This document shows, in pieces, positions 23,751-57,031 of a stretch of DNA of 64,000 bases (within the stretch, counting starts at the first letter, position 1; the number at the start of each line of letters is the position of its first letter). The DNA is from Fomes fomentarius (taxonomy: Eukaryota > Basidiomycota > Agaricomycetes > Polyporales > Polyporaceae): contig JABYQN010000009.1 of assembly GCA_022606135.1 (NCBI GenBank), positions 2,195,001-2,259,000 on the forward strand, given 5' to 3'. A program made the position numbers and the translations under genes. The notes below the pieces were generated by a model that saw nothing but the letters and a program-made list of their open reading frames with translations, made no database searches and was not told the origin of the DNA.

Positions 23751-26700
23751 CTAATCCGCCTCCTGGAACGGTCTGTCGACGTTAGCATCCCCTTCGACAT
23801 CCTCTCCCTCTCCTCCCAGCTCCAGCCGTGCCATCAACGCGCTCATGTCGCTCGCAACGCGCTCTTCCAACTCATCCGAGTAGTCTCCTTCCGTCTTCAC
23901 TGGTGCGTTCACGTCCCACACCGGAGCATCCCCTCGCCATCCTCCGTGTAGGTAGATATGGTTCATGAACCCTCGCCAGATGGGATCCACTGCAAGGATT
24001 GTCGGCTCTCCGACGACGACGAGCATCGCTTGTGCTCGAGTGACCGCCACTGCGAGAGAAGATGATGGACTGCAGGTATGTAGGAAGGAGTATGCTGCAT
24101 ACCGTTGAACCGCCGTGGGTTGGAAACGAAGCCGAGCGTGAACTTTGCGTCAAACTCCAGTAGGTCGGCACTGCTCCGGACAGTGGAGATAATGATCACT
24201 CTGCGTTCCTATATGGACGCACGAAGATGGTCAGCGCCTAGCGTAGAGGAAGGAATATGTATATTACCTGACCCTGGAACTCCTCGACGCTACCAACGTG
24301 CACGTCTGCGATCCCGGCATCCCGCAAGAGCTTGCGGATCTTGCGCACCTGCGCGTGGTACGGCGTGATGACGCCAATGTCTCGAGCTTCTACACACGTC
24401 CCGTGGTACCCATCGGAAGACCACACTGAGCAATACACCTGAAGTCGAGGAACGTGCGCACTCACGAATCGGGTGGGAGCGGTCTTCGAGGAGGGCCTGG
24501 ACATATGCTTTCACCTCGCACGCCTCGTCGATGTTGAAGTAGGAAGGCGAGGTCGACTCGCGATCGTTGTGGCCGGATATTGCGTGAAATACAACGGGGA
24601 AGTTCGGCTGAGCTAGCTGCGACGATCCGAGGAAGGAGTTGATGACGTGGGGAGCACCGCACACCTCAAGCTCGTTGTCGTAGAACTTCTGGTTCGGGTA
24701 GTGCAGGATGGCTTGGTGCGAGCGGTAATTCTGCAGCAGTTTAATCCATCTGGGAGGATTAACACGGCGGACGTGAAAATAAAGCGGGAAGAAGAGAGAA
24801 GACAGGCACTTACGAAACTCCACGACCCCGCTGAGCATCGTAAACAGGGCGCTCCATCAGCCGTTCCATGTAACTCACACCTAGCCCGTGCTCCCTTGCG
24901 ATACTCGACCGCACGATAGGTCCGAGCTGCTTCGGGTCCCCAGACAAGACGATCCGGGTACTCGCCGAGGCCATGGTCTTGATGGCGGTGAGCACCTCTG
25001 GCTCGGTTGCTTGGCCCGCCTCGTCGACGAAGATGTGGGTGAAGTGTCCGAGAGGCAGCCCGACGTTGTACGCAAATGACGCGTTCCCACACGTGGACAC
25101 GATGACCCGGTACTCCTTCAGGGTGTCGAGGTGTGGAATGGCGTAGTGTGTTGACTGATGGAGAGCGTAAGGGACGAGTGCTTCTGGCACAGAGAGGGGG
25201 TCTCTGGATGCCGCGTTACACCGGAAAAGCTCCTTTGGCGTGAGCGCGGTGATGAGTCGCAGGGCTAGGATATCTGCGGCACTGTTGCTCGGAGCACAGA
25301 CCAGTACCCTCGCGTCTGGGTCGCGGTGCAGCACTTGACGTATAGCCTCCACTGCTGTCACGGTCTTGCCCGTACCAGGACTGCACGACATGAGTGGTCA
25401 ATCGTAAGGACGGAGAGCAGAAGACAAGACTTACGGTCCAAATATGATGAACGGAGCAGAGCCGGCGCGAAGTTGGGTGATCGACTTCACGGCTTGCAGC
25501 TGAGCGGGATTAGAAGCGATTAGGGTGTTGAAAGCTTCTATGGGGTGTTCGTTTTGGCCGAGAGGTCGCTCGAGTCCTTTGTGGCCGACGTCAGGGAAGA
25601 GAAGGCGCTGAGGAGAAGGAGGAGAAGCGTTCAAGGCTTGGTGCTGCCTTCGAAGAGGGACGCGGTTGAGCAGGAAGCAGACGTTGTAACGTCTACCGAC
25701 AGCCTGGAAAGACCCGTGAAAGCTGACTCGGATGGTATTCAGACGAACATCGTGAACGAAACCTTCGTGGGTTCGTCCTTCGTCAGAATTCGCGGCTTGC
25801 ACCTGAATCGCGTCCCCTGAAGTATTTCGTCAGCGTTATATGGAAGCGAGTTGAGGTTTCGAGGCTTCGAGACTTCGATTGACTCACCAATGAGGACACT
25901 CGGACGCTTCTCTGCCAATCCAGGAACCTGTAGGCTGAGTGGAAAGTAAGCAGATATATACAGCAGCCGCTTGGAGAGCACCGACCTGTATAGTGTACCT
26001 TCTCTGATGAATTCGACGTTCACCAAGTCGTAACGACGCAGATCCTCCCTGAACCAGACCCATTACAATGATGAGCTATCCTGCCAGGATCTTGGACTAT
26101 GCTGAGACCCACACTGTACGATCCTCCTCCATCCAAAGTAACCTCGCAAAATTGAGTTTATGGCTGGCCATGGTCAACTCGTCACCGAAATACTTCTCTG
26201 CGATGACAGCAGCGACCTCGTCCAGTTTGCCCGACTTGAGCACACGTGCAAGCTTTAGCGGGATCTTCGCGCGAGGAAGTCTCTTGACCCATTGGGCAGC
26301 CACGAGAGAGGGTGGTCTCTCACCAGAAACGACAGGGAGATCGCTTCGCCACGGAGCGCGTGGCCTGCGAACGTATGGAGTGACAGGCTTCAAGGCTTCA
26401 TGCTCGGCAGCGTCGCCAACTACAGCTCGAAGACGCCGAGTGATCACGAACGGGTTCTTGTTCGCGCCTTGACATGTGATGACCAGCTGTTCTTCGTATC
26501 GGCCACGAACCTTGCGTTTGAACAGCACCTCAAGCTGAGCCGTCCCGCCGGGGCCGACAACATTAGGACGTGATTCGACAGAAAATCTGGTGGCATCTCG
26601 TCAACGATGAAGAATGGAGTACCGGAGGATGATATGCGTACGGAGCGCCGGCATTCTGCGATCGACTCTGAGAGAATATATCTACGGAGAGGACGGTGAT

Positions 26701-27303
26701 AGGATCGGGGCCGATCGCGGATAGAGTGAGCATTCCATGAAGGCCGCTCTTGGCCGTGTTCAGAGAGATGAACCCGAAGTCCAAGCCAGACTCCAGGTGC
26801 GAGACTTTGAGTTCGTCCCTGTCCTTCGAGGCTTGCTCGTACGCGATGCGGAACCTGGCGTGTCTTTCCCGCGTTTGATGTCGACGTCCGTCCACATGAC
26901 TCTTCCATGCATCCAGGGAGAGAGAGATGTCGCATATTTCGCATAACGACAAGGTTGGCGCGTCACGGGGAGGGTTAGTCGGTTGAACTGAGTCGGGATC
27001 GATGCCACAGCGTGCCGCATTTGCTCGATGCTTCCGGCCGGCGATGTGTATTGGCCACACGCCTTTGGCGGCACTGATGGGAATCTTGCAGACCGAGCAG
27101 TATTGCCAGCCCGAATTCGCTCTACCGAGCACTTTGGCATGCTCTGCACTCCCTACGTGAGCGTCGTACTTCGACGCTGGTGAGCATATGACCTCGCAAG
27201 GCTTGCAATACTTTGCATCGTGAATCAAAGGGCACGTGGTGTCCTTACAGCCGTCACCGTAGAGAGCTCGTGGACAGTATGCAAATGGAGGCGGTGGAGG
27301 CAT
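23751..27303 (-). CDS. CCCH/C2H2 zinc-finger MOV10/SDE3-like SF1 RNA helicase (intact)
   Basis: Ten exons: 27303-26642, 26586-26113, 26048-25986, 25934-25888, 25816-25435, 25380-24814, 24749-24466, 24389-24268, 24208-24103 and 24049-23751. Phases agree throughout; 1001 residues. The N-terminus has a CCCH-like finger (CPRALYGDGCKDTTCPLIH) and C2H2-like fingers (CEVICSPASKYDAHVGSAEH; CSVCK...HIAGRKH; CEICD...HVDGRRH). A beta-rich region leads to VPGLAEKRPSVLIGD, which is typical of MOV10. The core holds motif I GPPGTGKT, Ia CAPSNSAAD, II DEAGQ, III GDPKQLGP, IV NYRSH, V VEEFQGQ and VI TRAQA. DEAGQ points to MOV10/SDE3 more than UPF1. Family members unwind RNA 5' to 3' and act with Argonaute in silencing (SDE3, SAD-3, Armitage). 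A role here is inferred. The start ATG lies directly before the CCCH finger. Confidence 0.88.
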
Positions 27304-56500: not shown

Positions 56501-57031
56501 AGCGTTGAAAATATACAAGGACAAGTATGTCTACTACAACATTCTTTTCCCATGAGGCAGTACTCACAGATGATGCCAGGAGCGCATGGTCATCATCATG
56601 TCGACGGTGAGGAGCAGCAGAGACCTGCTCTCGTATGACGCCAAGTTCACCCTCGGGTTCGTCTCGAACCCGCGTCGATTCAACGGTACGTGAAGTTACG
56701 ATACTCAGCGCCCTAATAGCTCAATTCCAGTATTCTTGTAGTTGCAGTGACTCGTGCACAAGCCTTGCTCATGATTGTCGGAGACCCCAACGTCCTCTCC
56801 ATCGACCCTCTCTGGCGGGGTTTTATGAACTATATCCATGCGCGTGGCGGATGGCGTGGGGCGCCGCCAGCGTGGGACGTCAATGCTGAGGTAAAGACTG
56901 TGGGTAACTACGCAACGGAGATACGGGAGGCAGCTGCAGTAGAGATGAATGCATTCATGGAAAGGCTGGAAGAAGGTGACGATTTAGAGGGCGGAGCGAA
57001 CTATGACAGACCGTTCCAGGAGACGGACTAA
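53516..57031 (+). pseudogene. MOV10/SDE3-like helicase with a single-base deletion in motif III (copy 7)
   Basis: Ten exons: 53516-54183, 54239-54715, 54769-54831, 54891-54937, 54991-55372, 55426-55988, 56060-56343, 56403-56524, 56580-56685 and 56742-57031. The zinc-finger N-terminus (CPQRRYHAARFCDICAAICF, CTVCD, CALCK with His pairs), motifs Ia CAPSNSAAD, II DEAGQ, IV NYRSH and VI TRAQALL are present. Motif I is GLPGTGKT and motif V is VENIQGQ. Exon 6 is one base short: near 55872 the expected GDPKQLGP is read as GDPNSLVL, and the frame stops about 20 codons later. Restoring one base would give about 1000 codons with every other exon in frame. It is therefore either very recently inactivated or a sequencing error. 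The last exon ends RPFQETD, as in the left-hand copies, and is tail to tail with GST2. Confidence 0.85.

Follow-up and report, generated by a model that had tools for sequence, protein, structure and literature searches.

A 64-kb stretch of the genome of Fomes fomentarius (assembly GCA_022606135.1, 40.9 Mb in 24 contigs), hereafter the window, lies on a contig that we call C9 and holds seven copies of a family of zinc-finger RNA helicases of superfamily 1 (SF1): A, B, C, a truncated copy A', and remnants at 16.6, 28.1 and 33.9 kb. We consider it probable, at roughly 0.72, that the locus is an old and retained set of MOV10/SDE3-type helicases surrounded by younger debris. A single zinc-finger MOV10-like gene would have given rise to at least four (A, B, C and D) before Fomes, Daedaleopsis, Ganoderma, Dichomitus, Lentinus and Cerioporus split; the paralogues would have diverged in the RNA-binding N-terminus, with the loss of a finger in B, and in the motor, with a change of motif V in C, and would have been kept ever since. 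Similar copies in Fomes would then have undergone unequal exchange and gene conversion, from which A', the remnants and possibly the frameshifted state of C would have arisen, all of them by-products and no rapidly renewed arsenal.

The helicase genes and their family

Two of the copies in the window are intact according to splice models, Pfam and alignments: A (23751..27303, minus strand), with 10 exons and 1001 amino acids (aa), and B (49531..52903, plus strand), with 10 exons and 957 aa. Their intron phases are identical (2,2,2,1,2,2,1,0,1), and all introns are GT..AG. C (53516..57031, plus strand), modelled by protein alignment, also has 10 exons, with one frameshift in the region of motif III. 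The splice models of all three were derived from protein-to-DNA alignments with A and B as queries: with A, C shows the same ten exons, one frameshift and no stop; with B, a second frameshift appears in the finger region, where the alignment with A needs none and the list of open reading frames (ORFs) is open. The frameshift in C may be a real lesion or an assembly error. A genome search yielded a fourth full copy, D (C9:1607765-1611242), 0.6 Mb from the cluster in the window, with ten exons and a frame that is open over residues 5 to 1001 of A, its start codon not being fixed. The alignments bear out the initial annotation in its count (two intact genes, one with a single lesion, one 5'-truncated copy and three decayed ones) and in the ten-exon plan common to the intact copies. 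Protein database searches were taken at the best 120 matches per query, a depth at which absence from other species is uninformative, and the matches listed are fungal. The list of 120 proteins obtained with A gives no support for a full-length Fomes model of A, B or D, the protein P0011, which matches A', being the sole entry under the name Fomes, and the search with C gave no Fomes protein among 43 matches at E 1e-280.

The assignment of A and B as MOV10/SDE3-type SF1 helicases with an N-terminus of CCCH and U1-type zinc fingers is supported by the domains predicted in their sequences. Both match AAA_11, AAA_12 and MOV-10_beta-barrel in Pfam, the last (PF21634) at 59.4 bits in A and 42.1 bits in B against a cut-off of 23.6, and all seven matches of this model in the genome (E <= 1) fall in the four genes A-D, although one match in C scores under the cut-off. 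This agrees with what had been proposed from the letters alone, a MOV10-type zinc-finger helicase. In B, the MOV-10 Ig-like model matches at E 0.0018 and the helical one at E 0.02, each below its cut-off; neither matches A, which is matched by an Ig-like model of the HYDIN/VesB type (26.9 bits; cut-off 25.5); the predicted structure of an A orthologue has strands at 183-275. The architecture of A reads as a CCCH and three C2H2 fingers, an Ig-like part, a helical part, the 1B barrel and two RecA domains. In the alignment, its finger residues and helicase motifs are present, and the helicase motifs are also present in B and D. An identity with UPF1 was considered and rejected: UPF1_Zn_bind has no match in A or B (E <= 1) and is found in a separate gene at C1:3210.9 kb. 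The NF-X1-type finger likewise has no match in A or B, its only matches in the genome being at C9:1530.8-1531.7 kb, and this is a weak test in that the literature describes the finger as an addition in RnhA, so that SAD-3 and Hrr1 may lack it.

Lineages shared with other genera

We built two trees, one of 85 rows and one of 40 rows with bootstraps, and in both each of A, B, C and D has a clade of its own, shared with proteins of other genera. The A clade includes Cerioporus, Lentinus tigrinus, Dichomitus and two Ganoderma species; the B clade has seven proteins from seven species and the C clade six from six; the D clade has one protein from each of two Lentinus species, followed by relatives from Trametes, with two in T. 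polyzona. Neither the genome search nor the trees gave a full-length copy specific to Fomes. Conserved orthologues in related species, which the initial annotation had named as the finding that would speak against it, are thus what the trees return for the full-length genes.

The lineages also carry marks of their own in a motif and finger alignment of 22 rows (the Fomes copies and orthologues). The middle C2H2 finger is missing in B and in 5/5 of the B orthologues examined. Motif V reads TSVENIQGQE in C and in 5/5 of the C orthologues examined, and in none of the 16 other rows. C itself has GLPGTGKT as Walker A, where 21/21 other rows have GPPGTGKT. Several models of C orthologues are without the first fingers, perhaps through gaps in the gene models. 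The finger and Ig parts are 43-63% identical to those of orthologues, compared with 77-83% for RecA2.

Database proteins on contigs of equal size suggest linkage in other species too. Cerioporus and Ganoderma leucocontextum would have A, B and C together, L. tigrinus would have A, B and D, and two members would be linked in L. brumalis (C and D), Daedaleopsis (B and C) and Dichomitus (A and B). At least several Agaricomycetes, among the matches listed, have two to four such helicases on contigs of one size, so the earlier statement that they are usually few per fungal genome does not hold here. Duplication recurs elsewhere, because copies group within species in the 85-row tree: Epithele has a group of three, Amylocystis one of three and another pair, and pairs occur in Dentipellis, Heliocybe, Amylostereum, Abortiporus, Crassisporium and Trametes polyzona.

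Some observations concern the surroundings of the full-length genes. A relative made only of the N-terminus (fingers and Ig-like part; C9:1612370-1613319) adjoins D, is 30% identical to A and is open over three exons, and the 681 bases analysed after it contain no further match. In the window, an AAA ATPase gene of the 26S proteasome subunit type (45735..47203, plus strand; Pfam AAA, rough gene model), which we take to be Rpt6-like, lies 2.3 kb upstream of B. In Dentipellis, a single database protein, P0087, includes both a 26S proteasome subunit and a helicase of the A-D family.

Truncated and decayed copies

A' (11691..13570, minus strand) covers aa 481-1001 of A, encoded by the 3' part of the gene, with both RecA domains in an open frame; the 5' part is missing. 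It belongs to a segmental duplication whose left copy (8842..13570) ends inside A' and whose right copy (20751..25623) holds the 3' part of A, the two being 93-97% identical; the homology of A' to A stops at 13570, which is the end of the duplication. That A' is a working motor-only helicase and not debris seems to us unlikely. It keeps a 521-codon open frame with introns, over which it differs from A by 23 nucleotides and 6 amino acids (dN 0.0051, dS 0.045), when ~27 amino-acid changes would be expected under free drift at the observed dS (P ~2e-6), and it is matched by P0011, a Fomes database protein of 606 aa in a cluster of five members (among the 120 listed). The differences from A are however patchy: a stretch of 600 bp has 0, the adjoining 800 bp have 41 and the 1000 bp beyond have 4. 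The low dN is no proof that A' works because this pattern fits gene conversion from A; by our own count, the diverged patch has 17 coding changes, of which 3 replace an amino acid. In addition, A' is without the finger, Ig and barrel domains.

The remaining copies in the window are more decayed. A B-like copy (16557..18217, minus strand) corresponds to aa 389-908 of B and has 9 frameshifts and 3 stops. A scrap of ~100 bp (28165..28266, minus strand) is 87% identical to B in DNA. The remnant at 33.9 kb is a chimera, one half of which is a decayed B-like scrap (34215..34651, minus strand) and the other a C-like 3' end (33853..34090, minus strand) within an inverted duplication that includes a GST gene. 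The first arm of this duplication (32706..34090) is 89% identical to the second (56794..58159), which holds the 3' end of C and the GST gene; the duplication is broken up and extends past the GST gene (31344-34090 and 56794-59603). Chance similarity of the remnants was ruled out, since even the shortest scrap matches B in DNA at E 1.7e-29. Outside the window, the genome search found one more remnant, which is A-like, has three frameshifts and lies at C18:169.7-171.1 kb.

Pieces of one other gene of the window, putatively encoding a Ser/Thr-rich protein with a membrane span according to its ORFs, recur at 4994-5390, 7456-7635, 20406-20597 and 38387-39095. Two tandem genes for ICMT-type methyltransferases lie at 60000-62213, with a possible fragment at 28722-28843.

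Function, alternatives and known relatives

Each protein of the set would bind structured or double-stranded RNA through its CCCH and U1-type fingers, and the UPF1-like motor would travel along the RNA, stripping or remodelling it, which would let either RNA-dependent RNA polymerase (RdRP), Dicer and Argonaute or the decay machinery act; targets may be divided among the paralogues. A silencing role is possible because the genome has genes for Argonaute (8 loci from 18 matches by our own grouping, four of them partial matches in one tandem array), RdRP (9 loci from 27 matches) and Dicer (3 loci from 4 matches), both grouped likewise. These counts are ordinary because they are within the ranges for Agaricomycotina, which, in the portion of that survey drawn on here, reach 10, 14 and 4 for Argonaute, RdRP and Dicer around means of 5.68, 6.93 and 2.46 (PMC4290597). 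The literature search gave no paper on RNA interference (RNAi) in Fomes, judging by titles and the openings of abstracts. The Argonaute array (C11:1798001-1841196) consists of ~12.0-kb units that are ~96% identical, with four Piwi matches ~12 kb apart; these matches are partial only, so that the genes are perhaps incomplete, and the array may start before the stretch analysed. It has no DNA match with the window at E 1e-5. The RdRP matches include an adjacent pair (C10:1994791-2001190) and a loose group (C6:248938-307943).

The initial annotation had read the locus as a birth-and-death cluster and a candidate RNA-based defence locus. On this view, duplication would renew a defence array whose copies turn over under pressure from transposons and viruses. 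Several dead copies and recent segmental and inverted duplications within 46 kb are in favour of this, as are the within-species copies in the eight taxa listed above and the faster divergence of the finger and Ig parts compared with RecA2. Fast N-termini are nevertheless also expected from relaxed constraint, and orthologues in other genera exist for 4/4 full-length Fomes copies. The idea of a defence array is unsupported for the full-length genes because A-D are old lineages with such orthologues, and we find it improbable for the locus as a whole; the turnover itself holds for the debris in Fomes and for the copies within some other species, and fails for full-length A-D.

Among functions that could be attributed to A-D from their sequences, RNA silencing has in our opinion about an even chance, and another form of RNA surveillance a clearly smaller one. 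The proteins might be general surveillance helicases, UPF1-like and engaged in decay or translation quality control with no link to small RNAs, a tentative alternative against which stand the separate UPF1 gene and the MOV10-specific domain. It may gain from the case of Ustilago maydis: a helicase of this species is tabulated on the MOV10 row of a survey, though in a basidiomycete-specific clade of the authors' tree (PMC12511879, in the part used here), and its subphylum is reported, in the part of PMC4290597 that we rely on, to be without Argonaute, Dicer and RdRP. Silencing may therefore not be the role, since Ustilago, devoid of RNAi, has a MOV10-row helicase. Other observations also weigh against an old and retained set. 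C is broken in this assembly. The claim of shared contigs rests on equal contig sizes and not on gene maps. The mitochondrial carrier gene between A and B shares a contig size with the helicases in 0/29 species paired by eye, Jaapia excepted, and wider synteny is not conserved because the carrier sits on contigs of other sizes. Motifs II and III are DEVG and GDHKQLGP in the B-type protein of Daedaleopsis, an A-type protein of Ganoderma has an odd motif VI and a D-type one of Lentinus has no motif III, deviations that may be gene-model errors or real change.

The paralogues could constitute an undescribed multi-paralogue module of RNA surveillance in core polypores, in which the finger content of B and motif V of C set different RNA specificities, or C is a non-unwinding regulatory subunit, the set working alongside duplicated Argonautes and RdRPs; this is a speculative proposal that we hold doubtful. 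Agaricomycetes are rich in Argonautes and RdRPs, and paralogues that are old and clearly marked by lineage lend themselves to the study of how a MOV10-type helicase splits its tasks. The locus resembles a stable toolkit more than a fast-changing defence array. Apart from the survey with the Ustilago helicase, we found no study of MOV10-type helicases in Agaricomycetes among the literature matches listed, which leave most subscription journals uncovered. The novelty seems to lie in a fungal set with fingers and in the marks of its lineages, while the family is known, as is the tandem duplication of MOV10 in vertebrates.

The comparison with known systems places the set near MOV10, SDE3 and Armitage of animals and plants. 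Animal helicases of the MOV10 type are reported to restrain retrotransposons and some viruses (PMC3475670, PMC3408377, both cited from parts of the papers). A and B share with the group the SF1 UPF1-like core and the MOV-10 barrel, with weak matches to the Ig-like and helical models, under cut-off, in B, whereas the fungal set differs by its CCCH and three (in B, two) U1-type C2H2 fingers and by comprising several divergent paralogues at one locus. The missing Zn-binding domain sets A and B apart from UPF1. SAD-3, which the initial annotation had counted as a relative, is, by the literature, better left aside: in the passages available to us, SAD-3, Hrr1 and RnhA are orthologues (PMC5384783) and Hrr1 is the ZNFX-1 orthologue (PMC9276528), so SAD-3 is unusable as evidence here. 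These proteins, which act in RNA silencing, resemble A-D in being fungal UPF1-like helicases, and are distinguished by their descriptions, as ZNFX1 orthologues and, for RnhA, by an NF-X1 finger that A and B do not match. In vertebrates, MOV10 is described as having been duplicated within chromosomes and in tandem in particular lineages, under purifying selection (PMC9319325, in the part cited here); unlike those duplicates, the fungal lineages were kept across genera, with finger and motif V changes specific to each lineage.
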